From assembly GCA_903923395.1 (NCBI GenBank), contig CAIXXM010000009.1, forward strand, positions 1-45,821: 45,821 nt of DNA, written 5' to 3'. Source of the stretch: an uncultured Acidobacteriia bacterium (GTDB lineage: Bacteria > Acidobacteriota > Terriglobia > Bryobacterales > Bryobacteraceae). The notes under the pieces were generated by a model that saw only the letters and a program-made list of their open reading frames with translations, was not told where the DNA came from and made no database searches. Of this stretch, positions 797 through 33,600 are shown one piece after another (within the stretch, counting starts at the first letter, position 1; each line of letters begins with the position of its first letter). Both the position numbers and the translations under genes were made by a program.

Positions 797-1732
797 CTAA
801 CGGATGCCGTAAACAAACTGGTCGGCGGGGTCCAGAAGCAGCGTGGAATCAGCGTTTACAAAGGCGGTTCCGGTCACGCTCGGGTAAACGACGCCGTCGC
901 CGGGCACGAAGGAACCCTCGAACAGGCTGCCGATGAGACTCTCCTGCCGCCAGATGTGCCCGGGTTGCAGTTTCCCATCCGCGGCCAGGCACGCCAATTT
1001 TGCGCTTGTGCCCGTCCCGCAGGGTGAACGGTCATAGGCCTTGCCGGGACAAAGAACGAAATTGCGGCTGTTGGCACCGGGATCCGCCGGAGCGCCGAAG
1101 ACTTCGATGTGATCGATGTGGCCGTGATCCCGCCCGGTAATCCCGTTCGCTTCGAGCGTTTGCCGGATCTTCCAGGTGAAATCCGTCAGTTGGTCCAGAT
1201 TCTTGAGTTCCACGGAGCACGGGCTATCGGAAGTTAGAAAGAACCAGTTCCCGCCCCAGGCGATATCGCCGGTCACCTTGCCATATCCTTCGACCGTAAC
1301 TTCCACACCCGTGGCATGCCGGTAACTGGCGACATTATTCACGGTCACCGCACCGTTCTCATGCAGTCGCGCTTCGACAACGCCCACAGGGGTATCGATC
1401 CGGTGCAGGCCAGGTTGAATCCGTCCAAGATACTGCAGCGTGACGGCAAGGCCGATGGTGCCGTGCCCGCACATATTCAGATAGCCCACGTTGTTAAAGA
1501 AGATCACACCGGCGGAACAATCCGGCGCATGCGGTTCGCACAGCAGCGCGCCCACAATGGCATCATTGCCGCGCGGTTCATTCACAATGGCAGAGCGGAG
1601 GTGATCAAAGTCTCGGCGGAAACGCTCCAGCCGTTGCTGCAGCGGACCGCTACCAAGATCCGGCCCGCCTTCAATCACAAGACGGGTGGGCTCACCGCCG
1701 GTATGGGAATCAATCACTCGAATGCATTGCAT
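797..1732 (-). CDS. 4-hydroxyproline 2-epimerase (proline racemase family)
   Basis: A 311-residue proline racemase-family enzyme that should interconvert trans-4-hydroxy-L-proline and cis-4-hydroxy-D-proline, the first step of hydroxyproline breakdown. Both catalytic cysteines are present: Cys88 in NMCGHGTIG and Cys238 in DRSPCGTGTSAK. This argues for an epimerase rather than the trans-3-hydroxyproline dehydratase branch, which replaces one cysteine. The N-terminus IRVIDSHTGGEPTR is typical. The start is taken as the ATG at 1732, which gives the usual MQxIRVIDSHTGG beginning and leaves the palindrome at 1743-1754 exactly 10 bp upstream; an ATG at 1744 would put the start inside that palindrome. 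The divergent regulator operon carries the remaining pathway enzymes, which supports hydroxyproline over proline as substrate. Activity on proline cannot be excluded. Confidence 0.9.
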   Translation of the reverse strand: MQCIRVIDSHTGGEPTRLVIEGGPDLGSGPLQQRLERFRRDFDHLRSAIVNEPRGNDAIVGALLCEPHAPDCSAGVIFFNNVGYLNMCGHGTIGLAVTLQYLGRIQPGLHRIDTPVGVVEARLHENGAVTVNNVASYRHATGVEVTVEGYGKVTGDIAWGGNWFFLTSDSPCSVELKNLDQLTDFTWKIRQTLEANGITGRDHGHIDHIEVFGAPADPGANSRNFVLCPGKAYDRSPCGTGTSAKLACLAADGKLQPGHIWRQESLIGSLFEGSFVPGDGVVYPSVTGTAFVNADSTLLLDPADQFVYGIR

Positions 1733-1742
1733 GGAATCCGCC

Positions 1743-1754
1743 ATTGTATACAAT
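1743..1754. promoter_or_regulatory. Palindromic operator/bidirectional -10 element, copy 1
   Basis: A perfect 12-bp palindrome, ATTGTATACAAT, midway between the divergent epimerase (start 1732) and GntR gene (start 1765), with exactly 10 bp to each start codon. Its core resembles operators of FCD-type GntR regulators, which often carry a TNGTATACNA core. Each half also reads as a -10 hexamer (TACAAT) in its own direction, so one site could both drive and repress two nearly leaderless transcripts. An identical copy lies at 9688-9699. Binding is inferred, not shown. Confidence 0.7.
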
Positions 1755-1764
1755 GAGCATTCCG

Positions 1765-2457
1765 ATGATCGCAGTACAAGCCCCGTCCGTGAGAGGTCAA
1801 AGCACACAGGCTGCTTTCGAACAACTGCGCGACTACATCATCCGCGGCATCCTGCCCCCGGGCGTGTGGATGATTGAGGCTGAGATCTCCAACATGTTGG
1901 GCATGAGCCGAACACCCGTGCGCGGCGCTTTGCAGCGGCTGCACCGCGAAGGCTATGTGCAGTCTTCCGGCAGCGGAGCGAAAACGCGCATGGCAGTCAC
2001 GCCACTCACGCAAAGCGACGCCCAGGAACTCTATGCGCTGATAGGCCATGTGGAAGGGTTGGGGGCGCGACAGACGGCGCTGTTGCCCCAAAGGCAGCGG
2101 CAGGCAGTAGTGAAGGTGCTGCGGGAGATCAATGGCAACCTTCGCGCGCAAACCATGCCGAAGCAGATCTTCGAACTCGACCTGGCATTTCACCGGACAC
2201 TTCTGGAAGCTGCGTCCGGCCCGAGGGTGATGGAGATACACGCCACGTTGCAGCCGCAGGCAGAGCGTTACTGGCGGTTATATTCGGATGCGATTCTCGG
2301 TGAACTCGGGCAATCCGCCCGTGAACATAATGAGATCCTGAAAGCCCTGCGCGAGGGGGACGCCAGCGCGGCCGAACAAGGTGTGCAACTGAACTGGAGC
2401 AATGGTTTCGCAAGGCTTGCAGCGATGATGGCATCCGGCAAACGGGGGCGTTGGTGA
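1765..2457 (+). CDS. GntR-family (FadR/FCD) transcriptional regulator
   Basis: A 230-residue regulator with an N-terminal winged helix (about residues 12-75; recognition region NMLGMSRTPVRGALQRL) and a C-terminal all-helical FCD ligand-binding domain. Of the usual FCD metal ligands, His143 (FHRTL) and His188 (EHNEI) are visible, while the third histidine position near residue 210 appears to be Asn. It heads a seven-gene operon of hydroxyproline catabolism and peptide processing, and GntR-type regulators are known for hydroxyproline loci (HypR of rhizobia). It most likely represses this operon and the divergent epimerase through the palindrome 10 bp upstream, with hydroxyproline or a pathway intermediate as inducer (inference). 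The start is the ATG at 1765; an ATG at 1753 and a TTG at 1744 lie within the palindrome. Confidence 0.9.
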   Translation: MIAVQAPSVRGQSTQAAFEQLRDYIIRGILPPGVWMIEAEISNMLGMSRTPVRGALQRLHREGYVQSSGSGAKTRMAVTPLTQSDAQELYALIGHVEGLGARQTALLPQRQRQAVVKVLREINGNLRAQTMPKQIFELDLAFHRTLLEAASGPRVMEIHATLQPQAERYWRLYSDAILGELGQSAREHNEILKALREGDASAAEQGVQLNWSNGFARLAAMMASGKRGRW

Positions 2458-3542
2458 GAGCCGTGATCATCGGTGCAGGCATTGTTGGCGCGGCCTGCGC
2501 GTACGAGTTACAGCGCGAAGGTTTCCAAGTCACCGTTTGTGATCCAGGCGTTATTGGCGGCGGGGCAACAGCGGCGGGCATGGGCCACTTAGCCGTGATG
2601 GATGACTCACCCGCCCAATTCGCCCTGACCAGTTACTCGCAGGCTTTGTGGCGGGAATTGGCGGAGGAGTTACCACCAACCGCGGAGATCTTGCCTTGTG
2701 GATCTCTTTGGATTGCAGCAGACGCGGAAGAGATGGCCGAAGTCCACCGTAAGTTCGCCTATTACTCAGAACGCGGCATTCCCGTCGAAGTTCTGGATAG
2801 TCAACAACTCGCGGAAGCCGAACCTCATCTCCGGCCGGGCATGGCTGGCGGATTGTTAATGAGCGCGGATGGCGTATGTTATCCGCCTTGCGCGGCGGAG
2901 TGGCTGCTGCGCAGTGTTTCCGTGATCCGCGCCAGGGTTGTCCGGCTTGCGGAAGGAGAAGTAACGCTGGACCGGGGAAGCAGGCTCGAAGCCGATGTAA
3001 TTATAGTCGCCAACGGCACCGCGGCGGTCGACCTCTTTCCTGACCTTCCCCTGGCCCCGCGCAAGGGGCACTTACTCATCACAGACCGTTATCCCGGCTG
3101 GCTGCGGCACCAGCTCATCGAACTGGGCTATCTGAAGAGCGCACATTCCACTACTGCGGATTCTGTTGCCTTCAATGCACAGCCCAGAGCCACGGGACAG
3201 ATTCTGATCGGCTCTTCGCGCCAGTTTGGCGCCGTGAACGGAGAGATCGACCCGCCGATGTTAGCCAGAATGTTACAACGGGCATTCGAGTATATGCCGG
3301 GGCTCGCACAGTTGGCCTCCATCCGCACCTGGACTGGCTTTCGCGCGGCGACACCCGATAAGCTCCCGGTGATTGGCCACGCCCCGGGTTATTCCACTGT
3401 CTATCTCGCCACAGGCCATGAGGGTTTGGGGATCTCCACATCGCTGGCAACGGCGAAGTTACTGGCGGATCAGTTGATGAACAGGGAGAGCCGCATTCCG
3501 CGCGAACCATATCTTCCGGGGAGGAGTTACTCCCATGATTGA
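2454..3542 (+). CDS. FAD-dependent D-hydroxyproline dehydrogenase, DAO-family subunit
   Basis: A 362-residue flavoprotein of the D-amino acid oxidase (DAO) family. The Rossmann motif VIIGAGIVGAACAYEL is at the very N-terminus and the C-terminal FAD site reads ATGHEGLGISTS. With the following 2Fe-2S protein and the FAD/NAD subunit it matches heteromeric D-hydroxyproline dehydrogenases, which oxidise cis-4-hydroxy-D-proline to 1-pyrroline-4-hydroxy-2-carboxylate; this would be the substrate-oxidising subunit. The start is a GTG at 2454 whose last two bases overlap the TGA of the GntR gene (GTGA), indicating translational coupling. It overlaps the next gene by 8 bp. Related DAO proteins oxidise proline or sarcosine; the neighbouring epimerase and deaminase make hydroxyproline the best guess. 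Confidence 0.87.
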   Translation: MRAVIIGAGIVGAACAYELQREGFQVTVCDPGVIGGGATAAGMGHLAVMDDSPAQFALTSYSQALWRELAEELPPTAEILPCGSLWIAADAEEMAEVHRKFAYYSERGIPVEVLDSQQLAEAEPHLRPGMAGGLLMSADGVCYPPCAAEWLLRSVSVIRARVVRLAEGEVTLDRGSRLEADVIIVANGTAAVDLFPDLPLAPRKGHLLITDRYPGWLRHQLIELGYLKSAHSTTADSVAFNAQPRATGQILIGSSRQFGAVNGEIDPPMLARMLQRAFEYMPGLAQLASIRTWTGFRAATPDKLPVIGHAPGYSTVYLATGHEGLGISTSLATAKLLADQLMNRESRIPREPYLPGRSYSHD

Positions 3543-3771
3543 ACTCTTCATCAACGGCCGGGGTTTCTTTGTGAAAGAAGGAACCACCGCAGCCGCTGCG
3601 GTATTGACGTGCGGTACAGCACAGTTCCGGAGCTCAGTTACCGGCGAGCCCCGCGCACCTCTCTGCGGCATGGGAATTTGCTATGAGTGCAGGCTGACCA
3701 TAGACGGTGTGCAGCATGCACGCAGTTGCCGGATCATGGCCACAGAGGGGATGCGGATCGAAACCACATGA
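3535..3771 (+). CDS. Small 2Fe-2S subunit of D-hydroxyproline dehydrogenase
   Basis: A 78-residue protein with a plant-type 2Fe-2S ferredoxin fold of the compact kind found in hydrogen cyanide synthase A-like, proline and hydroxyproline dehydrogenase complexes. The cluster ligands are Cys44, Cys49, Cys52 and Cys65 (CGMGICYEC then SC). It should pass electrons between the DAO flavoprotein and the FAD/NAD subunit in the cytoplasm. It overlaps the preceding gene by 8 bp and the next by 4 bp (ATGA), so all three subunits are translationally coupled and probably made in equal amounts. Its length and cysteine spacing are as expected for the gamma subunit; it has no transmembrane segment. Confidence 0.88.
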   Translation: MIELFINGRGFFVKEGTTAAAAVLTCGTAQFRSSVTGEPRAPLCGMGICYECRLTIDGVQHARSCRIMATEGMRIETT

Positions 3772-5000
3772 CCGACCTCCTGATCATCGGTGCCGGACCG
3801 GCCGGTATCGCCGCTGCAGTCACAGCTGCCGAACAGGGGGCCAGCGTTACCGTCATTGATGATAACCACGCTCCCGGCGGCCAGATCTGGCGCGGCGAAT
3901 TTCATGGCAAGCCCTGGTATGACCGCTTCCAGAAGGTCAAACTGAATATCATCAGTGACGCCCGGGTGATTGCCGTGCATGGCAACGCGGTAGTCATTGA
4001 ACAAGGCGCTGCGGCACGAACTATCCATTGGAACAAAGTTATCCTCGCAACCGGAGCAAGAGAGTTATTCCTTCCCTTCCCCGGCTGGACGCTACCCGGA
4101 GTTACCGGTGTTGGTGGCTTGCAGGCACTGGTAAAATCCGGTCTGGTGATTCGCAATAAGAGAGTCGCCGTTGCAGGCTCCGGACCGCTGCTGCTTGCTG
4201 CCGCTGCGTATCTTCGGGCCAAGGGTGCGGATCTCGTTATGATCGCAGAGCAGGTTCCTACTGCAGCGTTGATGCGATTCGGCATGGAACTGCGCAAGCA
4301 TCCTAAGAAACTCAAGCAGGCGGCAGCATTACAGCTTCAGCTATTAGGTGTTCCGTATGTGCGGGATTGTTATGTGGAACACGCCACAGGCAAGGGCAAA
4401 CTCGAAACGCTGCAATTCCGGCAGGGTAGCAAAACGTTCACCGAAGAGGTGGATTACGCCGCTATCGCTTACGGCTTTACGCCGGAAACAGAACTGGCGG
4501 CGGCCTTCGGCTGCGAGATCCTTGCGCACGGTGTCTGGGTAGACAAGCGGCAACAGACTTCCATCCAGAATGTTTACTGCGCTGGAGAATCCACTGGAAT
4601 CGGCGGCGTGGATGTTGCGTTGCTTGAAGGTGAACTCGCGGGCTTGGCGGCCTGCCGCAAACCAACGAAACATCTCCTGCCCTTGCTCGCTAGAGAGCAA
4701 CACTTCGCAAGTCTTCTCAATCAAACGTTTTCTCCGCGGCCCGGATTGAAACATCTTTGCACTGCAGACACCATTGTTTGCCGTTGCGAAGATGTAACTT
4801 ATCAAGTCCTGCGGCAACAACCGGATTCCCGCACAGCAAAACTCCAGACACGCTGCGGCATGGGACCGTGCCAGGGACGCATTTGCGGTCCCGCGAATAC
4901 TTTCCTCTTCGGCTGGGAACAAGGTTCCGTCCGCCCGCCTATCTTACCGGCCCGTATGGCAACGCTCGCCCTATCCATGACACAGGAGACCTCTTCATGA
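3768..5000 (+). CDS. FAD/NAD(P)-dependent D-hydroxyproline dehydrogenase subunit with Bfd-like 2Fe-2S domain
   Basis: A 410-residue pyridine nucleotide-disulfide oxidoreductase-type flavoprotein. The first dinucleotide motif is LIIGAGPAGIAAA near residue 5, a second is VAVAGSGPLLLAAAA, and the C-terminal flavin site includes NVYCAGESTGIGG. The last 75 residues form a Bfd-like 2Fe-2S domain with CRCEDV near residue 338 and RCGMGPCQGRICG near 362-372. This architecture is that of the large subunit of heteromeric D-hydroxyproline, D-proline and hydrogen cyanide-forming dehydrogenases. Together with the two preceding genes it makes a complete dehydrogenase. Its start overlaps the previous stop (ATGA) and its stop overlaps the next start in the same way. 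The acceptor could be NAD or the respiratory chain; the sequence does not decide. Confidence 0.88.
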   Translation: MTDLLIIGAGPAGIAAAVTAAEQGASVTVIDDNHAPGGQIWRGEFHGKPWYDRFQKVKLNIISDARVIAVHGNAVVIEQGAAARTIHWNKVILATGARELFLPFPGWTLPGVTGVGGLQALVKSGLVIRNKRVAVAGSGPLLLAAAAYLRAKGADLVMIAEQVPTAALMRFGMELRKHPKKLKQAAALQLQLLGVPYVRDCYVEHATGKGKLETLQFRQGSKTFTEEVDYAAIAYGFTPETELAAAFGCEILAHGVWVDKRQQTSIQNVYCAGESTGIGGVDVALLEGELAGLAACRKPTKHLLPLLAREQHFASLLNQTFSPRPGLKHLCTADTIVCRCEDVTYQVLRQQPDSRTAKLQTRCGMGPCQGRICGPANTFLFGWEQGSVRPPILPARMATLALSMTQETSS

Positions 5001-5908
5001 ACATCACCAAAACAATGCTCTGGGAAGGCGTGATCCCCGCGATCACCACCCCCTTTCACACGGACCTGACCGTAGACCATGATTTCTTCGCGAAGCACTG
5101 CAACTGGCTCGTGGACAATGGCTGCAAGGGTGTTGTCGCCCTGGGCTCGCTCGGCGAAGGGGCAACACTCACTCCCGGCGAAAAGGCAACGATCCTGCGC
5201 ACCGCTGTTCGCGCGATTGGGGACCGCGCTGTTGTGGTTTCCGGTATCTCCTCGCTCAGCACTGCGGAGGCCGTGGAACTTGCAAAAAACGCCGAGGCTG
5301 CCGGCTGCAATGGCTTGATGGTGCTGCCACCTTATATCTACAAGAGTGACTGGCGCGAAATGAAGGCCCACGTCAAAGCAGTAATTGACGCCACACCACT
5401 TTCCTCCATGCTGTATAACAATCCGGTTGCCTATGGCACGGACTTTGTGCCGGAACAGGTGGTGGAACTTATGGATGAGTGTCCGAATCTACATGCCATC
5501 AAAGAGTCGAGTACAGATGTCCGCCGCGTGCTGGGCCTGCGCAGTTTGCTGGGTGACCGGATTCAGATCCTTTGCGGTGTGGATGATGCCATCGTGGAAG
5601 CCGTCTACGCCGGAGCAACGGGCTGGATTGCAGGCCTGGTGAATGCGTTTCCCAAGGAGTCCGTCGAGTTATTCGATTGTGCAATGCGCGGCGACAAAGA
5701 GCGCGCGTTTGAAATCTACCGTTGGTTTCTCCCGCTGTTGCGCATGGATACCGTGGTGAAGTTCGTACAGTTGATCAAACTGGTGCAGGAACGCGTCGGC
5801 ATGGGCAGCCAACTGGTTCGCGGCCCCCGGCTGGTCCTCACGGGCGATGAGTTACAGGCAGCCGAGAAGACCATTGCGGAGAGCCTCGCGACATACCCAT
5901 GGAAATAG
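4997..5908 (+). CDS. DapA-family 1-pyrroline-4-hydroxy-2-carboxylate deaminase
   Basis: A 303-residue TIM-barrel protein of the dihydrodipicolinate synthase/N-acetylneuraminate lyase family. The Schiff-base lysine is Lys169 in HAIKESSTD and the catalytic tyrosine Tyr140 in LYNNP; the substrate loop GSLGEGATLT is intact. In hydroxyproline loci this family member deaminates and dehydrates 1-pyrroline-4-hydroxy-2-carboxylate to 2-oxoglutarate semialdehyde. Its position directly behind the D-hydroxyproline dehydrogenase subunits supports that role over lysine synthesis. The start overlaps the previous stop by ATGA, preceded by AGGAG about 9 nt upstream. The next enzyme, 2-oxoglutarate semialdehyde dehydrogenase, is absent here. 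The gene overlaps the cyclophilin gene by 10 bp. Confidence 0.9.
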   Translation: MNITKTMLWEGVIPAITTPFHTDLTVDHDFFAKHCNWLVDNGCKGVVALGSLGEGATLTPGEKATILRTAVRAIGDRAVVVSGISSLSTAEAVELAKNAEAAGCNGLMVLPPYIYKSDWREMKAHVKAVIDATPLSSMLYNNPVAYGTDFVPEQVVELMDECPNLHAIKESSTDVRRVLGLRSLLGDRIQILCGVDDAIVEAVYAGATGWIAGLVNAFPKESVELFDCAMRGDKERAFEIYRWFLPLLRMDTVVKFVQLIKLVQERVGMGSQLVRGPRLVLTGDELQAAEKTIAESLATYPWK

Positions 5909-6477
5909 CTGCCCTGCTTTGCGCCATCCTGCTGGCTGCGCCCTCCACTTATCAGGTCGAGGTGGAAACCACAAAGGGAATCTTTGTACTGGAGGTCCAG
6001 CGGTCGCTCGCGCCTCACGGTGCGGAACGTTTCTATGAGCTGGTGGAGAGCGGTTATTTTAACGACAGCCGGTTCCACCGCGCGGTGGCAGGTAAGTGGA
6101 TGCAATTCGGGATTGCCGGGGAACCCAAGTTAGCCAAAGCGTGGAGGGGACGTACGATTCCCGATGACCCGGTGAGGGCATCCAATATCCGTGGGGCCTT
6201 CGCCTTCGCTATGACAGGTCCGGATACCAGAACGACGCAGATCTTCATTTGCCTCACGGATCAGAAGGCCCTCGATGCGCAGGGCTTCGCACCGCTGGGC
6301 AAGGTTATCTCAGGCATGGACGTGGTGGATCAACTCTACACCGGTTATGGAGAAACGTCCGGCGGGGGCATGCGCGCCGGCAAGCAGGACCCGCTCTTCG
6401 AGGGCGGTAATCAGTATCTGGATGCGAACTATCCGAAACTGGATCATCTGATCCGTGCGAGAATTCTGAAACAGTGA
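5899..6477 (+). CDS. Secreted cyclophilin-type peptidyl-prolyl isomerase
   Basis: A 192-residue cyclophilin with a short hydrophobic N-terminal signal (MEIAALLCAILLAAP) and therefore probably periplasmic. Family blocks are FHRAVAGKWMQFG, TQIFICLTD and FAPLGKVISGMDVV. The usual QGGD stretch after the active-site arginine is altered (MQFGIAG), and the tryptophan before GKV is not present, as in several bacterial forms. It overlaps the deaminase gene by 10 bp, so it belongs to the hydroxyproline operon. Cis/trans isomerisation of X-Pro bonds is often rate-limiting for proteolysis of proline-rich peptides, which suggests a helper role for the peptidases encoded nearby (inference). It could instead be a general periplasmic foldase. 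Confidence 0.88.
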   Translation: MEIAALLCAILLAAPSTYQVEVETTKGIFVLEVQRSLAPHGAERFYELVESGYFNDSRFHRAVAGKWMQFGIAGEPKLAKAWRGRTIPDDPVRASNIRGAFAFAMTGPDTRTTQIFICLTDQKALDAQGFAPLGKVISGMDVVDQLYTGYGETSGGGMRAGKQDPLFEGGNQYLDANYPKLDHLIRARILKQ

Positions 6478-6487
6478 AAGAAACCTT

Positions 6488-8383
6488 ATGAACCAGCGAT
6501 TCACCGCCCGTCTTGCTCTTCTTGTCACATGGACTCTGGCTGTGCAACCCGCGTTGCCGGCAGGATCGTACGATGTGCTTGATACTTCCAACAGTGAAAT
6601 GCGGCCATTGATTGAACGCGTCGCACTCGACCGGGGTAACATCCAGCGCTTCTATAACGTAACTGCGTCACCAGAGCGCCGCGCCCGCATGAGAAAGTTC
6701 TACGAGGAAGTACAGGCGGCACAGAAGGCAATGAACTTTGATGCCATGAGTCAGGATGGCAAGGTGGATTATGTTCTCCTGCGCAATGAAGTGGAACATG
6801 AACTGAAGCGTTTGTCGCTCGAAGAGAAGGAAGAGGCAGAGAATGCCGCGTATCTCCCCTTTATCTCCACCATGATCAACCTCGAAGAGTCGCGGCGCAA
6901 AATGCAGCCGATTGATCCGGCCAAGACTGCGGAGACGCTCACGAATCTCAACAAAGCTATGGAAGCGGCGCGCCGGTCCATCGAGGCGGAGTTACGCGGA
7001 GAAACGACGCCTGAGGCACTGCGCAAGCGGAAGATTGTTGGCAACCGCGCAGCGGCGGAGTTGACGGCATTGCGCGCTTCCCTGCGCAACTGGTTTACCT
7101 TCTATGATGCCTACGATCCGATGTTTACCTGGTGGGACGAGGAAGCCTACAAGACCTTGGATAACACGGCAGGCTCATATATCTCATTCCTGCGGGAACG
7201 CGTTGCCGGCATGCGGCCGGCGGTGGCAGAAGTTGGCGGTGCTCCGGCCGGTGGACCCGCACCCGCGGCAGCCGGTGGCGGCGGAGGTGCACGGCGCGCG
7301 GGTGGAGGCGCAGGTTTCGCACCTGGCACCGGCGCACGGGCGGGCTCCACGGATGATATCGTCGGCAACCCCATCGGGCGGGAAGGCTTAATGGTGGAAC
7401 TCGGCTACGAGATGATTCCCTATACGCCGGAGCAACTTATCGCCATAGCCAACAAAGAGTATGCCTGGTGCGAGGCGGAAATGAAGAAGGCCTCCCGCGA
7501 GATGGGTTTCGGCGATGACTGGAAGAAGGCTCTTGAAAAGGTCAAGACCATGTATGTGGAACCGGGCAAGCAACCGGAAATGATCCGTGGGCTTGCACTC
7601 GAAGCCGAGAAGTTTCTGGACGATCATGACCTGGTGACCGTGCCTGCCGTGGCCCGCGAGACATGGCGCATGGAGATGATGAGTCCGGAAAGACAGTTAC
7701 TGGCGCCGTTCTTCCTGGGTGGCGAACAGATTACCGTTTCCTATCCGGTGAACAGCATGACTTATGAGCAGAAGATGATGTCACTGCGCGGCAATAACAT
7801 CCCGATGTCACGCGCGACGGTCTTTCATGAGCTCATCCCGGGCCATAACTTGCAGGGCTATTATGCCGCGCGTTTCAAGCCCTACCGCGGGCAAGTGGGC
7901 GGCACTCCATTCATTACCGAAGGCTGGTCCCTTTACTGGGAGATCATGATGTGGAATCTGCATTTCCAGAAGACACCGGAAGACCGTGTGGGTGCGCTCG
8001 TTTGGCGCATGCACCGTTCGGCGCGGATTATCTTCTCGCTCAGCTTTCATTTGGGGAAGATGACACCGGAACAGTGCGTGGAATTTCTCATCGACAAGGT
8101 TGGTTTTGAGCGCGAGAATGCTTCCGCCGAAGTACGCCGTTCCTTTGGTGGCGGCTATGGCCCGCTCTATCAGGCAGCTTACCTGTTGGGCGGCCTGCAG
8201 ATCAAATCGATGCATGACCAGATGGTTGGTCCGGGCAAGATGACGGAGCGCCAGTTCAATGATGCCGTGCTCAAAGAGAACCGCATCCCTGTGGAGTTGG
8301 TGCGCGCCAGCCTGACGAAGCAGAAACTGACGCGGGATTACACCTCGACCTGGAAGTTCTACGGCGACGTGCCGGTGAACTAA
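6488..8383 (+). CDS. Secreted DUF885-family metallopeptidase-like protein
   Basis: A 631-residue protein with an N-terminal signal peptide (about 1-25) and a mostly helical DUF885 domain. The zinc-site motif HELIPGH is at residues 447-453, followed by a candidate third ligand Glu478 in TEGWSLYWE. DUF885 proteins are uncharacterised relatives of zinc peptidases with an HExxPGH signature. A glycine/alanine/proline-rich insert of about 45 residues (near 243-288) interrupts the N-terminal half and looks like a flexible linker. The gene starts 10 bp after the cyclophilin stop and is the last of the operon; its TAA shares 4 bp with the stop of the convergent BNR gene. A periplasmic peptidase acting on proline-containing peptides fits the context, but the substrate is not known. 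Confidence 0.85.
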   Translation: MNQRFTARLALLVTWTLAVQPALPAGSYDVLDTSNSEMRPLIERVALDRGNIQRFYNVTASPERRARMRKFYEEVQAAQKAMNFDAMSQDGKVDYVLLRNEVEHELKRLSLEEKEEAENAAYLPFISTMINLEESRRKMQPIDPAKTAETLTNLNKAMEAARRSIEAELRGETTPEALRKRKIVGNRAAAELTALRASLRNWFTFYDAYDPMFTWWDEEAYKTLDNTAGSYISFLRERVAGMRPAVAEVGGAPAGGPAPAAAGGGGGARRAGGGAGFAPGTGARAGSTDDIVGNPIGREGLMVELGYEMIPYTPEQLIAIANKEYAWCEAEMKKASREMGFGDDWKKALEKVKTMYVEPGKQPEMIRGLALEAEKFLDDHDLVTVPAVARETWRMEMMSPERQLLAPFFLGGEQITVSYPVNSMTYEQKMMSLRGNNIPMSRATVFHELIPGHNLQGYYAARFKPYRGQVGGTPFITEGWSLYWEIMMWNLHFQKTPEDRVGALVWRMHRSARIIFSLSFHLGKMTPEQCVEFLIDKVGFERENASAEVRRSFGGGYGPLYQAAYLLGGLQIKSMHDQMVGPGKMTERQFNDAVLKENRIPVELVRASLTKQKLTRDYTSTWKFYGDVPVN

Positions 8384-9678
8384 CGGAAATCCGCGGTTCC
8401 GACTTTCACCACCGTGCCGGGTGTGGCGGCTTCAGTCCAGACGCCGAACACCCGGCCATCATAGGCGGTGAGCCACGTATAATCCCCCAGAAAGAGGTTC
8501 TGCCCTTCAAACGGGCTATTACTCCAAAGATAGTTGGTAAAGCTTTTGCCGCCGTCTGTAGACCGCGCCAGAGTTACAGAGGTTTTGCGGTTCTCAAGGT
8601 CATCCCGGCGGTCATAATACTGGACGTAAACATCGCCGCGCACAGGGTCGACGGCCAGCCATTGAAAGAACTGATCGCGCCCGTTATGGATGGCATCACT
8701 GTTCACGCGCAAGGGCTGCCCCCACGTCTTGCCGCCATCGCGCGAGGCTGCGGTGAAGATATCGATATCTCCATTGCGGTAATCGCTCCAGGCAATGTGA
8801 AGTTCACGGCCCACACCGATTTGAGGAAAGCCCATCACGCGGGAGACGCCCGGAACGCCACCGAAGTAAACCGGTCCCACGGGCATGATGTCATGAGACG
8901 CTTCGAAGGTCTTGCCGCCGTCACTGGACTTGGTGAAGATGATAGAGTTCAGATCGTTCCAAACGGCATAGATGGTTCCGTCCTTGGCGGCCACACCCAC
9001 AAACCCTACCAGTCCACCGTTATCATCACGCGGCAGGCCGGCATGCGTGCTGATCCGCATGGGGGCCGACCATGTGTTGCCCTGGTCGGTTGACCGCGAG
9101 AAGAGAATGATGGATTGCCCGAGTTGCCATTCAATCCACCCGACATAGAGATTGCCCGCAAAAGGACTCCCCGGATTGTTATCGGCGAAGATACGGGGCA
9201 TATCCTCCCATTGGATATCTTTCTCGGTTCCAAGCGGGAATGACTTCACAGCAACGGGCTTCTTCTCCCACGTCCTGCCGCCATCGGGCGAGCGGCGGAC
9301 GTAGATGCCATTGCGGCGCGCATTGTGTGCCCAGTAAGATGTGGTGCCGAGCGTGTCAAACACAAGATAACTGAGATAGGCATTTCCCTTGTCATCGAAA
9401 GTGACAGAGACATCGCCCGCGGTGCGCCAATCATCTGGCGTGGTGCCCTCGGCCAGGGTGAAAGATTTGCCGCCATCCACAGACCACGCGGCACGGGCGC
9501 GCCCCTGAAACACCGCAACAACCTGATTCGGGTCTTTGGAATTCACTGCTATCCCCGGCTCATTGCCACGCGCGCCCGGCGGCGACACGGCGACCACCGA
9601 GCTTTTCGGTGCCCGCGGCAGAGTTGGCTGCGCGGCGAGCAGAGTGCAGAAGGAAATGGTGAACAGGGCGAATCTCAC
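8380..9678 (-). CDS. Secreted BNR/Asp-box repeat protein (sialidase-like propeller)
   Basis: A 432-residue protein with a signal peptide ([16 protein letters not shown]) and a beta-propeller built from Asp-box repeats. Six boxes are visible: [40 protein letters not shown] and STDGGKSF. Asp-box propellers occur in sialidases but also in many non-enzymatic secreted proteins; I do not see a convincing sialidase arginine triad, so a glycosidase activity is not claimed. The start is a GTG at 9678, which places the signal peptide at the N-terminus and lies 9 bp from the palindrome at 9688-9699. It is divergent from the DPP-IV-like peptidase and so probably shares its control. Its role may be binding or modifying glycosylated substrates (guess). 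Confidence 0.8.
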
Positions 9679-9687
9679 GGTACTGGA

Positions 9688-9699
9688 ATTGTATACAAT
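9688..9699. promoter_or_regulatory. Palindromic operator/bidirectional -10 element, copy 2
   Basis: A second perfect copy of ATTGTATACAAT, identical to 1743-1754, between the divergent BNR gene (GTG at 9678, 9 bp away) and the S9 peptidase gene (ATG at 9710, 10 bp away). The same geometry at both junctions, and the absence of other copies noticed in the window, argue for one regulator acting on both. Each half also supplies a TACAAT -10-like hexamer for its own strand. No obvious Shine-Dalgarno precedes either gene. Confidence 0.7.
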
Positions 9700-9709
9700 C
9701 AGAGATCCT

Positions 9710-12076
9710 ATGCGACGCCTCTGCCTTCTCTTCGTCTCACTATTGTCTGCTTCCGGACAGGTCACCTGGCAGGATTACGAACGCGCCACGGAGAGCCGTT
9801 CGAAGTACGCACGGTTGCTCACCGGAAGTGCCTCCAACTTCACCTACATGCCGGATTCGACGATGCTTTCCTACCGGGTCACCGTGGAAGGCGGTGCCCG
9901 GTTTGTATTGTTCGACACAAAGAGCAAAGCCAAACAACCCGCCTTCGATCATGACCGTCTGGCGGAGTCGCTGTCGAAAGCCGTACCGGGAAAGTACACC
10001 GGTATCACCCTGCCGTTCCAGTCGTTCACTTATGTGGATGGCCGCAACAGCATCCGGTTTGATCTGTTGACGTCAAGTTATCAGTGCCGGATCACTGACT
10101 ACCAGTGTAAGAAGCTGGATCCGGCGGAGATGGGAATGCAGCGCCGTCCTCCAGCGGCAGAGGAGGATGCGCCTGCGGAACCCGAGAATCAGGTGTTCGA
10201 CGGTATCTTCTTCGAATACCCGCAGCAGGGCGCTGGCGGCAGGCGCAATGGTCCAGAGAATGCCGGCGACAAGGTACTAACGTCACCGGATGGCAAGTAT
10301 GATGCACTCATTCAGAATTACAACGTGTTTCTCCGCGAGCATGGAAAACAGGAGGCACGCCCGTTGAGTTATGACGGCTCCGAGGGCAATTACTATACCT
10401 TCGCTTCCCTGCTCTGGTCGCCGGACAGCAAGCACTTGGTGGCTTATCATACGCGTCCCGGCTATAAGCGGGAAGTTCATTACATTGAATCTTCGCCGAA
10501 AGACCAGTTACAGCCAAAGCACTCCACCATTGATTACAACAAGCCAGGCGATGTGCTGGATCAGGCATTGCCAACGCTCTTTGACATTGCCGGCAGCAGG
10601 CAGACCAATATCGACTCCACGCTCTTTCCCAATGCCTTCAGCATGACCCGCCCGGCATGGCGCAAAGACAGCCGAAGTTTCACCTTTGCTTACAACCAGC
10701 GCGGCCATCAACTCTACCGGATCGTGGAAGTGGGCACCACGGGCAAGGCACGCGCAGTAATCACGGAAGAAAGCAAGACGTTTATTGAGTACCGTCCTCT
10801 GGCCGCCACCATGGCGGACACGGGCAAGACCTACCGCCTCGACCTCAATGACGGCAAGGAGATCCTTTGGATGTCCGAACGGGATGGCTGGGCCCATTTG
10901 TATCTATTCGATGGCATTACCGGGAAGATCAAGAACCAGGTCACCAAAGGCGAATGGGTGGTGCGGTCCGTTGACAAAGTGGATGAGGCGAAGCGGCAGA
11001 TCTGGTTCAGCGCCAGCGGCATGAACGCCGGTGAAGACCCTTACTTCACGCATTACTACAGGATTAACTTCGATGGCACTGGACTTACCAAGTTGAGTGA
11101 GGCGCCAGGCAATCACAAGGTTACGTTTGCTCCGGACATGAGCACTTATGTGGATGAATGGTCCACGACGTCGCAGCCCGCTATCTCACAGCTCCGCGAG
11201 ACAGCCACTGGAAAGGTTCTGGCGGAGTTGGAAAAAGGGGATGACAGCAAGCTGCGTGCGGCGGGCTGGTCGGCCCCCGAGGTCTTCACTGCTAAAGGCC
11301 GCGACGGCAAGACAGATATCTGGGGAGTCATCTGGAAGCCCCGCGGTTTTGACCCGGCGAAGAAATACCCGGTGATCGAATATATCTATGCCGGTCCGCA
11401 GGGTTCGTTTGTGCCCAAGACCTTTTCCGCCGCGGTACAACCGCTGACGGAGTTGGGCTTTGTGGTGGCGCAGATGGATGGCATGGGCACGAATAACCGC
11501 TCGAAGGCATTTCACGATGTCGCTTTCCAGAACCTGGGGGACGCGGGTTTCCCGGACCGCATTCTCTGGCACAAAGCAGTAGCGGCAAAGTATGGCTGGT
11601 ATGACATCTCCCGCGTGGGAATTTTTGGCACGTCAGCAGGCGGTCAAAACGCTTTGGGTGGCATGTTATTCCATCCGGAATTCTACAAGGCGGCCGTATC
11701 GAACAGCGGGTGTCATGACAACCGCATGGACAAGATCTGGTGGAACGAACTTTGGATGGGCTGGCCGCTGGGTCCGCACTATGCTGCCTCGTCCAACGTG
11801 GACAACGCCTACCGTCTGGAAGGGAAATTGTTATTAGTTGTGGGAGAGATGGACACCAATGTGGACCCGACCTCCACGTTCCAGGTGGTCAATGCGCTGA
11901 TGCAGGCCAATAAGAAGTTTGATTTGTTGTTTGTGCCAGGCGGCGGACACGGGTCAGGCGGGTTATTCGGCACACGCCTGCAGTTTGATTTCTTTGTGCA
12001 CCATCTACTGGGCCAGGAGCCACCGAAATGGCAGGCTGCGAATGACAAAGCCGGCCAGACAGACCGGACAATGTAA
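9710..12076 (+). CDS. Secreted S9-family dipeptidyl peptidase IV-like enzyme
   Basis: A 788-residue serine peptidase with a signal peptide ([16 protein letters not shown]), an N-terminal DPP-IV-type beta-propeller (about 60-530) and a C-terminal alpha/beta-hydrolase domain. The catalytic triad is visible as Ser642 in GTSAGG, Asp715 in GEMDTNVDP and His747 in [13 protein letters not shown] enzymes remove X-Pro or X-Ala dipeptides from peptide N-termini; the nucleophile box is GTSAGG rather than the classical GWSYGG. Control by the palindrome shared with the hydroxyproline operon suggests it releases imino-acid dipeptides outside the cytoplasm for that pathway (inference). It is followed by a strong hairpin at 12085-12119. 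Family assignment is firm; exact specificity is not. Confidence 0.92.
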
Positions 12077-12206: not shown

Positions 12207-13208
12207 TCAAAGGTCGGCTGCGAATTTTTCGATCCGCTCAATCATGGGGGTCGCGGCCAGCGCTTCGGTGCGCCCCAGACAAAGCCAGCGCGGACTGATG
12301 GGCACCATCATGGTGCGGCTGCCATTATCCACTTCGAGGTTGATGGTGGCACCGAGGGAGCGCACGATATCGCCACCCTCCTCTTTCGAAACATCACTCC
12401 TGCCAAAGACAGCAACGAAGCATTTGCCGCCCCAGCGGAAGATTCTGCCGGCCCCGCCGGTGCGGCGCTCCAGATGGTCGCGGTAACTCTGCAACACCGC
12501 GTTGCCCGTTTTGTGACCGAACTTCACGTTCAGCGCGGGCAGTTGCTGCAGATTCAAAACAACGGCAAAGCTCAGAGAATCTCTGGCGGAGAGCGAGTTG
12601 ATGTGTTCGATGCCCTGCTCCCGGGAAGGCAGGCCGGTGACGGCGTCCTTGGCCGGATCCACCTGGAAATCAGCGAGCCTGGCGCGGCTTTCGGCGAGTT
12701 GGCGCTTGAGTTCCTCTTCGGCGTGTAACCGCTGCCTGCGGCGTTCTTCTGACTGCTTTTGCAATTCCTCGATGGATTGCTTCAAGCGGCCCTTGAAATC
12801 TATCATTTCGCGGAGCGTCTGCACGCGGTCAATGTCGCGGGAAAGCTCGGTGATTTTCTCGAGCGATTTCTGGTCTTCGGCACCAACTACAGTCAAGGTC
12901 CGAGTGACCAGCTTTGCCAGTGCCTTCAGTTCCGTACTCTGTTCGCGGAGGATCCGCTCGAGTCCGCGCTTCTGGCCATCCATCACCTTGCTGAACATGT
13001 CCGCGATGACGGCCATGTGCTCTGGCGTTGCCTCTGGAGTGATGCGGCTCCCAATATCCCGCAGGTCTTCGAGGAATTCCTTATGCTTTGCAGGGTCATA
13101 TGGCAGGGCCGCAGCAGCAGCCGTTTCCACAAGACTTTCCGCCAGGGCGTAGACGGCATCCTGCGTGCCGTCTTCCCCGCGGCCAAGAAATCTGGCAATG
13201 GAGATCAT
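12207..13208 (-). CDS. Degenerate GGDEF-domain protein with long coiled coil
   Basis: A 333-residue cytoplasmic protein. The N-terminal two thirds are helical, with a charged coiled-coil segment at about 130-185 rich in Glu, Arg and Gln. The C-terminal part is a GGDEF-like domain, starting at DAVTGLPSREQGIEHIN and containing a region that matches the fold. The signature loop reads RWGGKCFVAVF, so GGDEF has become GGKCF, and the metal- and catalysis-related acidic residues are lost. It is therefore unlikely to make cyclic di-GMP and may act as a sensor or scaffold. Its ATG overlaps the TGA of the methyltransferase gene upstream (ATGA), so the two are coupled in one operon with the phosphatase. 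Confidence 0.8.
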   Translation of the reverse strand: MISIARFLGRGEDGTQDAVYALAESLVETAAAAALPYDPAKHKEFLEDLRDIGSRITPEATPEHMAVIADMFSKVMDGQKRGLERILREQSTELKALAKLVTRTLTVVGAEDQKSLEKITELSRDIDRVQTLREMIDFKGRLKQSIEELQKQSEERRRQRLHAEEELKRQLAESRARLADFQVDPAKDAVTGLPSREQGIEHINSLSARDSLSFAVVLNLQQLPALNVKFGHKTGNAVLQSYRDHLERRTGGAGRIFRWGGKCFVAVFGRSDVSKEEGGDIVRSLGATINLEVDNGSRTMMVPISPRWLCLGRTEALAATPMIERIEKFAADL

Positions 13209-30473: not shown

Positions 30474-30638
30474 CGTTTTACATACACTTCTCCAGTAAGT
30501 AACCTGCCTGAAACAGTTTTGTAACTCGACTAACATCTGTGATTGCTACCCTTTGTAAGACTCCGTAAACACAGGGACTTACAGGCTCATGCGCACACCC
30601 GCGCGCACGTGTCTCCAATAGAGGAAAGGATCACTGGA

Positions 30639-33600
30639 ATGTTCAGAAAACTTGCGGTATTCACCGCATTCGCCGCTTTGCTGTTGCCCACTGGCACGCT
30701 CCGCGCCCAGGGACTTTTGGGCACCATTCTCGGCACCATCAACGATGCGAGTGGCGCCGCCGCGTCCGATGTGGATGTAGCAGCCAAGAGCGCAGCCACG
30801 AATCTGGTGGTAAAAGTAAAGACGAAGAACAACGGTCTGTATCAAATCAGCAACCTGCCCATCGGCACTTATACGGTGACCTTCGCAAAGACAGGCTTCC
30901 AGACCGAAGTGCATCCCCAGATTCTGGTGCAGGCAGAGCGCTCGACAACGGTCAACGGCAACCTGCAGGTTGGCGCGGTGTCCACGTCCGTGGAAGTTAC
31001 GGGCACGCCGCTGCTGAATGAAACGGACCAGACGAATGGTTACGTGCTGGATGAAGCGACCATCCGCAACACGCCGCTCGGCACGGGAAGCTTTACGCAA
31101 CTTGCACTGCTCTCGCCGGGCGTGAATGCCGATTTCCTCGGCGGCACGGGTTCGAACGCAGGTGTTGGCAACGTGGCGATCTGGGCCAACGGCCAGCGCG
31201 ATTCCTCGAACAGCTTTGTCATCAATGGCGTGAACTCAGATAACATCTTCAACGGCAAATCGTCGAGCCAGGTGGAATCCAGCCGCTTCACGCTCAACAC
31301 AGGCCAGGGCAGCACGGTGGCAGGCGAAGTCCGCACGAACACCTCGGTCTTTGATGCTATCGGCCAGGCCATTCCCACCCCGCCGCAGGAATCTCTGCAG
31401 GAAGTTCGTGTGAATACGGCGATGTATGACGCAACGCAGGGAGCGAAGTCCGGCGCGCACATTTCACTCATCACGAAATCCGGTTCCAACGCCTATCATG
31501 GCGAGGTTTACGAGTATTTCCAGAACAACATCTTCAATGCGGCTCCGTTCTTCCGCAATAACAACCCCAGTGTTCCCGCGGGCCAGAAGGTTCCCCCACT
31601 GCATTACAACCGCCCGGGCGGCACGTTTGGCGGACCGGTGATCAAGGACAAGCTCTTCTTCTTCGCCTCCTGGCAGAGTCTCCGCGTGAATGACAACCTT
31701 GCAGGCACGCAAACGGCAACGGTCCCGACGCACCTGACAGATGACCGCAGCGCCACGGCTCTGGCAGCAGTGGCCCAGGCCGACCTTGGCGTAGCGGTAG
31801 CACCCAGCCAGATCGACCCGGCCGCGTTGAAGATCATGCAGCTGAAGTACAACGGTTCCTACCTGATTCCGACACCGACCATCAGCGACATCAACACCGC
31901 CAAGGTTCTGGGTTATAACCTCGTCGTCAATGGTCACCCGAGCAATACGATGGCAGACATTGCCACGTCCAGCATGGACTATAACTGGTCCTCGCGTGAC
32001 CGCCTCAGCGTGAAGTATCTCTTCCAGAACAGCCCCAGCTACAACCCCTACGGTGGCGGACCCGCCATCAATGGTTTTGGCAAGAGCCTGGATGCCGGTT
32101 CGCAGCTTGCATCGATTGACAACACCACGGTGCTGCGTCCGAACCTGATCTGGGAAAACAAGATTGGTTTTGTCCGTCAACGCGCCAATGCGACCACGGA
32201 CCAGCCTGCCACCGCGCAGGATGCCGGCATCAACCTTTGGGCAATCAGCAAGCTGCCTTCGATCGCTCTGGGCACCGTGGATGCCACGCTGAACAAGACG
32301 CTTTCGATCGGCCCCAGCGGTAACTTCGCCAACGCCGGAATTTTCCAGAATAAGTGGGATCTCAGCTCGACCGCCAACTGGACTCCGGGCCGCCACACCA
32401 TTTCCTTTGGTGCCACCTGGAACCACACGCAACTGAACATCATCAACCGGCAGACAGAGGCAGCTTCGATTGCCTTCACGAATTTCGCAACCTTCCTGAC
32501 CGGAGCCGAGAATATCAGCTCCTCCACCTTTTACAACGGTGCGAGTAACCGCTATTACCGCGCCGATCAGATCGGCCTATTCGTGCAGGATAACTACAAG
32601 CTGAAGTCCAACCTGACGCTGAACTTCGGCATCCGGTATGACTTCGAAGGTCCCATGAGCGAGAAGTACGGCACGCTGGTGAACTTCAACTCTGACCTTT
32701 ACCAGTACAACGCTTCAACGGATACCGTTACCAACAGCGGCCTGGTCTTCGCCGGCAATTCGCCTTATGCCACCAAGGGAGTGAGTAACTCCACCCTTAC
32801 AGGACGCCAGTGGGGAGTTGGTCCCCGCGTTGGTCTGGCCTGGAGCCCCAGCTTCATCAAGCACCTCACCCTGCGCGCGGGCTATGGTCTGTACTTTGAC
32901 CGCGGCGAACTGTTCACTTACTTCTCGCCTGGTGCTGGCCGAGGCTTCAGCGGTCCATTCGGCGTGACCATGCAGCTACCCTTCACGGTACCCATCAGCG
33001 CCCCTGCGAACGGGACACTTTCGAATCCTTTCGGTCCGACGGCCCCCGGCACTCCCGGAGACCCAAGCATTCTCGCCAAACAACTGCCGAATGCCGCGCA
33101 GATCACCAATGGCTCAGCGCCCTATATCTTCGGCGGCTACGACGCGCACAATACGCTGCCCTACACGCAAAACTGGAGCTTTGACCTGCAGTACCAGCCG
33201 TTCAACAGCTGGGTCTTCACAGCTGGATATGTGGGCAACCACGGCAGCAATCAGGTTCTGCCTATCCCCTTCAACCAGGCCAACATCGCCACGGCCTCCA
33301 ACCCGATCAACGGCCAAACCACGAGCTACGGCTTCAACATCATCCCGACTGAGACCGTTGCTTCCTATGAAGGCGGCAATACGGACCTGCGGGCTCCGTA
33401 TCTGGGTTACTCCACCAGTTCGGTACTCTACAAGGCCATTGGATTTTCCAACTACAACGCGCTCCAGACCAGTGTCCGCAAGCGCCTGAGTCAGAACTTC
33501 CAGATGACGGCCTCTTACACGTGGTCACACTCGCTCGATATCCAGTCCAACCTCGGCTTGTTCTTCAACGGCAACAATCCGCTAAACATCAAAGATTCGT

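Follow-up and report, generated by a model that had tools for sequence, protein, structure and literature searches.

Two identical copies of the 12-bp palindrome ATTGTATACAAT, about 8 kb apart, lie on a 45,821-nucleotide contig (CAIXXM010000009.1 of GenBank assembly GCA_903923395.1; the whole stretch is referred to below as the window) from an uncultured Acidobacteriia bacterium of the family Bryobacteraceae. Both are very probably operators of a HypR-like repressor of the FCD-GntR type, encoded beside the first copy (Table 1), which would act over divergent core promoters and couple the processing of prolyl peptides by predicted exported enzymes to the catabolism of hydroxyproline. The two copies are the only exact ones in the source genome, the presence of the palindrome among related genomes goes with that of the GntR ortholog, and sites of the same kind recur in front of orthologous target genes. 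A small regulon joining extracellular peptide release with cytoplasmic breakdown had been proposed in an earlier note on this DNA, and these observations support it at the level of comparative sequence analysis.

The palindromes and their genomic background

The earlier note had described identical palindromes amid divergent junctions. A scan of the window found both copies exact, with no third match at two or fewer mismatches, and the junctions are tighter than had been described, the first measuring 32 bp (10 + 12 + 10, from the epimerase ATG at 1732 on the minus strand to the gntR ATG at 1765) and the second 31 bp (9 + 12 + 10, from the GTG of the BNR-repeat protein at 9678 on the minus strand to the ATG of the dipeptidyl peptidase (DPP) gene at 9710). 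Were the alternative starts used (gntR ATG 1753 or epimerase ATG 1744), the start codon would overlap palindrome 1. The DPP start was placed at 9710 because the protein then opens with a signal-like segment and its homologues align from there.

Two or more matches at up to two mismatches were seen in 17 of 100 shuffles of the window, a control that carries no figure for exact matches. Across the whole assembly (6,152,153 bases in 169 contigs) the two window copies are the only exact ones, and the reversed pattern gave 0 matches. Nine further copies carry one mismatch, and all nine fall within genes called with a simple in-house caller, an imperfect tool that also extended the DPP frame too far, back to TTG 9536, and thereby counted site 2 as intragenic. 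The many copies at unrelated genes that, according to the earlier note, would have told against its proposal are therefore not present. A larger regulon in the source genome was rejected, as the assembly holds no further intergenic site at one or fewer mismatches. Ten exact copies among 228 same-family genomes that lack the GntR ortholog give a background of 0.044 per genome, from which the Poisson probability of two or more exact copies is 0.0009, leaving the 8-kb proximity of the pair uncounted. Chance occurrence of the palindrome was rejected on the basis of its uniqueness in the genome, this background and the first rank of its core in the de novo count described below.

Association of the sites with the GntR ortholog

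Of 237 same-family genomes, 9 proved to carry an ortholog of the GntR protein (E 1e-35, with up to 12 first-look candidates scored per genome, such that some orthologs may be missed). The exact palindrome is present in 6 of these 9 genomes vs 10 of the other 228 (Fisher p 2.6e-6, which is only indicative because the genomes are related); within genus g50 it is present in 5 of 7 genomes with the ortholog and in 0 of 10 without. Across the phylum, at a cut-off of E 1e-40 and with no more than 7 first-look candidates per genome, some orthologs again possibly being missed, the ortholog turned up in 12 of 396 genomes, namely the source, ten genomes of family f2 and one of family f25.

Epimerase matches are far more widespread, being found in 62 of 150 sampled same-family genomes (E 1e-30). 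Sixty of 65 matches in relatives were taken with up to 20 kb around them, the five left out being distant (E 3.5e-32 and weaker). The pattern TTGTATACAA occurs beside the epimerase at zero or one mismatch in a single relative (locus L070 of genome G083), which is also the only one of the 60 loci with a linked GntR ortholog; at four other loci a one-mismatch match lies elsewhere than beside the epimerase.

Promoters of the predicted target genes

At least 9 of the 12 positions are matched by 12 of 14 epimerase promoters from GntR genomes, compared with 0 of 52 controls from GntR-less genomes, and by 8 of 16 DPP promoters from GntR genomes (four of which reach 10), compared with 0 of 20 controls. 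For the source's family alone the counts are 4 of 6 (scores of 12, 12, 12, 11, 7 and 7) and 3 of 7, respectively. All controls come from that family; genomes outside it contributed 8 of the 14 promoters for the epimerase and 9 of the 16 for DPP. The 52 control stretches derive from 55 of the 60 epimerase loci, where a paralogue or split match may yield two per locus; loci L042, L065, L070 and L073, which belong to GntR genomes, and L101, a distant homologue (34%), were kept out of the control set, and loci L134–L139, chosen for their motif matches, were excluded from the pooled counts. An epimerase-promoter motif independent of GntR was rejected, given that no control promoter reaches the threshold. 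Loss of sites in relatives that keep the genes, which the earlier note had regarded as damaging, goes with loss of GntR. When each of the 14 epimerase promoters was shuffled, five sites were equalled by 0 of 1000 shuffles, three by 5–18 and four by 61–164, the remaining two promoters being siteless.

De novo counting, from which the source genome was excluded and in which target and other promoters were drawn only from loci holding the GntR ortholog, ranked GTATAC first of the 64 palindromic hexamers in target promoters. This hexamer occurs in 41% of the leading-target promoters (n = 56), compared with 8% of the remaining promoters of those loci (n = 195) and 2.6% of promoters at GntR-less loci (n = 741); in the f2-type subset (34 promoters) it reaches 32%, the next being GCATGC at 26%. 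Similarly, TGTATACA ranked first of 256 palindromic octamers, with 17 of 56 targets, 3 of 195 others and 0 of 741 promoters at GntR-less loci. Scores of at least 10 of 12 were reached by 29 of 95 targets, 12 of 195 others and 3 of 741 controls; these promoter counts are not independent, since divergent genes share stretches, and some of the others are divergent partners of targets.

Sites and gene neighbourhoods in relatives

The genes that recur behind sites in GntR-bearing relatives encode the epimerase, the GntR protein, DPP, a DUF885 peptidase, GH127 and GH31 glycosidases and outer-membrane proteins. Among the g50 and g14 genomes, a site precedes gntR in G050 and G176, the epimerase in G083, G170 and G174, GH127 in G050 and G083, GH31 in G101 (one mismatch), and genes for outer-membrane barrels of the carboxypeptidase-regulatory type in G050, G169, G101 and G083. 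An exact site precedes the DPP ortholog (55% identity) of G176, which has further sites before DUF885 and gntR, and in G083 a site precedes a gene whose next neighbour on the same strand is a DPP gene. Only some of the GntR-bearing relatives have a site before DPP, which the earlier note had included in the regulon.

In f2 and f25, the neighbours of GntR comprise subsets of the hydroxyproline catabolic (hyp) genes, DPP, DUF885, GH31, GH127, an outer-membrane protein and a cyclophilin, and the search in these families returned degenerate sites, TTTGTATACAAA, GTTGTATACAAA and ATTGTATTCAAT being examples. Overall, hyp genes are found near GntR in 14 of 22 GntR genomes. The exact palindrome recurs in a third family, in G527 (f25), about 50 bp before the GntR gene. 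That locus (L204) carries two GntR paralogs (6466–7143 and 12524–13207) spaced 5.4 kb apart, of which the first has the palindrome in front of it, with no hyp genes nearby.

The clearest gene set is that of plasmid pACIX901 of Granulicella tundricola MP5ACTX9, which combines GH31, DUF885, a Tat-signal protein without a Pfam match, an outer-membrane protein, GntR, aminopeptidase P, a cyclophilin, an M1 peptidase, the deaminase, three dehydrogenase subunits, the epimerase, an aldehyde dehydrogenase and two GH127-domain proteins. Sites matching 8–10 of 12 positions lie 32–108 bp before the GH31, M1, epimerase, aldehyde dehydrogenase and GH127 genes; taken singly, the M1 (9) and GH127 (8) sites are weak, and one of the sites with 9 matches is intragenic.

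The regulator and its probable operator

With a winged helix followed by an FCD domain, the window GntR belongs to the FadR/FCD subfamily. Its nearest solved chains are GntR proteins (E 2.6e-19 and weaker), and matches on Rhizobium plasmids share about 32% identity. Residues D143, H147 and H192, which resemble a metal site, do not vary in either of two alignments of the orthologs (9 and 17 sequences), and nor does N214. In metal-binding FCD proteins the last ligand position of the metal site is His; we take N214 to occupy this position, which here is Asn and not His.

Regarding the operator, ATTGTATACAAT is an AT-rich palindrome with TKGT/ACMA boxes and a GT-N2-AC core, and is predicted to be bound by a regulator of this subfamily. 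The likeness of the core to FCD-type GntR operators, remarked upon in the earlier note, agrees with the FadR-subfamily consensus TKGT/ACMA given in PMC4494728, where HypR is among the groups with a 2-nt spacing between GT and AC.

In relatives, a second palindrome-like copy is frequently present 12 bp away from the first. Over 33 hand-picked sites the best flank match is 7.45 of 12 vs 4.01 (standard deviation 0.22) in shuffles, a value that 0 of 1000 shuffles reach. As with NanR, this suggests that dimers bind cooperatively. Neither site of the window has such a partner, the best flank matches being 6 and 5. Loci with tandem palindromes at this 12-bp spacing are L111, L115, L116, L117, L137, L138, L139, L178, L196, L202 and L222.

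The glycosidase arm of relatives and the possible substrate

The glycosidase genes of relatives point to plant hydroxyproline-rich glycoproteins as a candidate substrate, as judged from gene content and motif. Of 20 GntR genomes, 10 have a GH127-domain gene no more than 25 kb from GntR, and of 30 GntR-less genomes, 0 have one at that distance from the epimerase; these counts were read by eye, with different anchors and short contigs. GH127 genes also lie within 10 kb of a member of the DPP subfamily in 6 of 13 GntR genomes and in 3 of 7 GntR-less genomes covered by both searches (again by eye). The pairing of DPP with GH127 thus does not depend on this GntR, which favours a role for the peptidase in the use of plant glycoproteins and makes it less likely that GntR is the only organiser. 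The GntR-less contigs concerned are G020:C196, G047:C27 and G077:C27, where the DPP subfamily gene is 3–6 kb from GH127 genes. The GH127 family is polyspecific, and is also mentioned in papers on carrageenan.

It is conceivable, and is put forward tentatively, that Acidobacteriota carry a dedicated locus for the utilisation of plant hydroxyproline-rich glycoproteins, in which a HypR-like GntR acting on tandem 12-bp palindromes controls sugar removal by GH127 and GH31, outer-membrane uptake, prolyl isomerisation, prolyl and X-Pro peptidases and full hydroxyproline catabolism, such that both the glycan and the backbone of extensin-like proteins are eaten; the source genome would then hold a reduced version. 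A rather doubtful alternative, which is compatible with the operator reading set out at the start, is that the same regulon has animal collagen or gelatin as its natural food. Collagenase genes do belong to HypR regulons elsewhere, and the source genome has only one GH127-domain match, which is distant (E 1.5e-54) and on another contig, with no GH127 gene under the operator. However, relatives have GH127 and GH31 both under the same motif and beside GntR (collagenases were not searched for), and the DPP subfamily itself is found less than 10 kb from GH127 in several genomes, with and without GntR.

Possible promoter overlap and alternative readings

According to the proposed mechanism, the GntR protein would be a local repressor, a dimer of which, bound at the centre of a junction, would shut down transcription in both directions. 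The FCD domain may bind hydroxyproline or one of its products, upon which both junctions would open, the first then yielding the epimerase and a presumed operon of GntR, three-subunit dehydrogenase, deaminase, cyclophilin and DUF885 peptidase, and the second the S9 peptidase and the BNR-repeat protein. In this way the cell would couple an extracytoplasmic release of (hydroxy)proline peptides to the cytoplasmic breakdown of hydroxyproline.

The two TACAAT ends of the palindrome may double as the −10 elements of two leaderless-type promoters. The 252 called genes of the source family (window plus loci L042–L101) are enriched for TANNNT at positions −15 to −12 upstream of the ATG, and 25% of them have a Shine–Dalgarno-like motif, which suggests that leaderless transcripts are common in this family. 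TACAAT starts at −15 on the BNR side and at −16, one base outside the enriched positions, on the other three sides (TANNNT at −16 is at background, 0.012), and the −10 fit is therefore close, not exact; a sigma-70 scan listed no promoter-like site at either junction. If the palindrome does serve as a −10 element, repressor binding would shut off both promoters.

The palindrome might be a symmetric −10 element and nothing else, directing leaderless bidirectional transcription with no regulator involved; elements of this kind cause divergent transcription. The presence of TACAAT on both strands, with the palindrome edge 9–10 bp from the start codon on all four sides, favours this, as do the TANNNT enrichment and the scarcity of Shine–Dalgarno-like motifs. 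Nevertheless it is improbable, since it does not explain why there are two copies per genome, why they track one GntR ortholog, why the 52 epimerase and 20 DPP control promoters lack them and why tandem copies stand 12 bp apart in relatives, and since neither the −16 position of three of the four TACAAT elements nor the outcome of the sigma-70 scan conforms to it.

Several observations weigh against the palindromes being operators of this particular regulator. The exact palindrome was found in none of the ten f2 GntR genomes, and in 8 of the 22 GntR genomes no hyp gene was found in the roughly 20 kb or less examined around GntR. Plasmid 2 of Gemmatirosa kalamazoonensis (L223), from another phylum, encodes a GntR ortholog at 41% identity with neither hyp genes nor sites of at least 9 in 30 kb (15 kb per side). 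The epimerases of G050 and G101 lie apart from GntR and have no site (7 of 12), and a second epimerase of G083 (L073, outside the 14 promoters counted) is likewise siteless, its inclusion making the count 12 of 15. The four score-9 epimerase sites (G508, G383, G516 and G476) are matched by 6–16% of shuffles of their own promoters, and come from f2 genomes, for which there is no same-family control. No site of at least 9 precedes DPP in 8 of the 16 GntR-genome promoters, although seven of these follow a same-strand gene and may be within operons. Finally, three of the ten exact sites in GntR-less genomes (L152, L155 and L159) adjoin other GntR-like genes; another FCD regulator could thus use the same core, and the palindrome may be a shared operator type.

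That the sites serve another FCD-GntR protein of the source genome, with the adjacent GntR a bystander, is in keeping with these last three loci and with a core common to FadR-subfamily operators (PMC4494728), but is a slim prospect, given that site presence tracks this ortholog over 237 genomes and that in G050, G176, G527, G586 and G631 the GntR gene has a site in front of it.

Genes of the window

The gene identities proposed in the earlier note were borne out by family searches, which returned Pro_racemase/4-hydroxyproline epimerase-like, FCD-GntR, DAO, Pyr_redox_2, DHDPS-family, BNR and DPPIV_N plus Peptidase_S9 assignments (Table 1). Most epimerase homologues align from about MQCIRVID, and the top two NCBIfam models for epimerases give scores of 435 and 431 bits, slightly below their curated cut-offs of 450 and 442. 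An annotated 2Fe-2S protein stands in Granulicella pACIX901 at the place matching the small frame between the dehydrogenase subunits. The signal-peptide-like N-termini of the cyclophilin, DUF885, BNR and DPP proteins, by which export is predicted, were judged by eye alone. Further along the window, at 30543–34313, a large CarboxypepD_reg/outer-membrane barrel protein is encoded that resembles the site-bearing ones of relatives; it has no site at two or fewer mismatches.

Table 1. Predicted operators and genes at the two divergent junctions of the window
Feature	Position	Strand	Remarks
Operator-like palindrome no. 1, ATTGTATACAAT	1743..1754		Between epimerase and gntR starts; 14-bp palindrome CATTGTATACAATG
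Operator-like palindrome no. 2, ATTGTATACAAT	9688..9699		Between BNR and DPP starts
4-hydroxyproline epimerase-like protein	797..1732	-	Pro_racemase PF05544, E 5.8e-97; ATG 1732, alternative ATG 1744
FCD-type GntR regulator	1753..2457	+	PF00392 E 3.5e-11, PF07729 E 1.5e-16; alternative ATG 1765
FAD-dependent D-amino-acid/D-hydroxyproline dehydrogenase-like subunit	2451..3542	+	DAO PF01266; putative substrate, from cluster
Small frame, probably 2Fe-2S subunit	3535..3771	+	Judged by eye, being below the size limit of the ORF list; between two dehydrogenase subunits
Pyr_redox_2 FAD/NAD subunit, same dehydrogenase	3768..5000	+	Family search; start estimated
DHDPS-family protein, likely pyrroline-4-hydroxy-2-carboxylate deaminase	5012..5908	+	Putative function, from cluster; start estimated
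Cyclophilin-type peptidyl-prolyl isomerase	5899..6477	+	Hydrophobic N-terminus by eye; cyclophilin also in Granulicella cluster
DUF885 peptidase-like protein	6488..8383	+	HELIPGH motif; hydrophobic N-terminus by eye
BNR-repeat protein	8380..9678	-	GTG start 9678; signal-like N-terminus by eye
DPPIV/S9 family peptidase	9710..12076	+	PF00930 and PF00326; GTSAGG nucleophile motif; signal-like N-terminus by eye

Relation to known systems and significance

In gene set and predicted operator the locus resembles a HypR-type system, in that the regulator is linked to epimerase, dehydrogenase and deaminase genes and a predicted shared operator precedes both hyp genes and the regulator gene. The proteobacterial HypR of Sinorhizobium meliloti is likewise a GntR-family regulator of epimerase, dehydrogenase and deaminase genes (PMC5343134), with the same 2-nt spacing between GT and AC (PMC4494728), but belongs to another phylum, and the genes added here are S9 DPP, DUF885 and cyclophilin, with GH127, GH31 and M1 in relatives. 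Streptomyces coelicolor HypR (SCO6294) is a FadR-subfamily FCD repressor of the hyp operon and a collagenase gene, with L-hydroxyproline-induced targets, and, as a further likeness, it binds over the −10 region of the promoter of its own gene (PMC6608401). In contrast, its motif CTNTGC(A/C)ATGTCAC is unlike the window palindrome, and a three-His metal site is predicted there (PMC6608401), where the last ligand position here is an invariant Asn. Escherichia coli NanR is also an FCD-GntR repressor that binds a repeated operator as cooperative dimers, although its repeats are direct GGTATA repeats, whereas whole palindromes repeat at 12 bp in the relatives and stand singly in the window (PMC8012715). 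HypBA of Bifidobacterium longum provides a parallel for the glycosidase arm, being a GH127 beta-L-arabinofuranosidase system acting on sugars of plant hydroxyproline-rich glycoproteins; there it serves the release and import of beta-L-arabinooligosaccharides, whereas in relatives of the source genome GH127 stands beside hydroxyproline catabolism and peptidase genes (PMC7263609, PMC10850190).

The earlier note's view that no such system had been described was too strong. The HypR regulons predicted for Proteobacteria, with autoregulation in 32 of 46 genomes, extend in some taxa to secreted collagenases, proline peptidases and TonB receptors (PMC5343134), and the S. coelicolor regulon adds a collagenase (PMC6608401); the coupling principle is therefore known. 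What appears to be new is the acidobacterial version with its S9/DUF885/cyclophilin set, together with the tandem 12-bp operators and GH127/GH31 arm of relatives. No paper on an acidobacterial regulon, on the S9/DUF885/cyclophilin set or on a locus joining GH127 to hydroxyproline catabolism was found among the open-access papers searched. By way of context, hydroxyproline degradation is enriched in one group of Acidobacteriota genomes (PMC11245096), use of hydroxyproline-rich glycoproteins has been proposed from gene content for Latescibacteria, and bacterial degradation of extensins and arabinogalactan proteins is described as little known (both PMC4454575).

With a recognisable operator, and with the clearest gene set residing on a plasmid of a named strain, G. 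tundricola MP5ACTX9, the predicted regulon is directly testable. In addition, the motif in combination with the GntR family may serve as a marker for loci of this kind in metagenomes.

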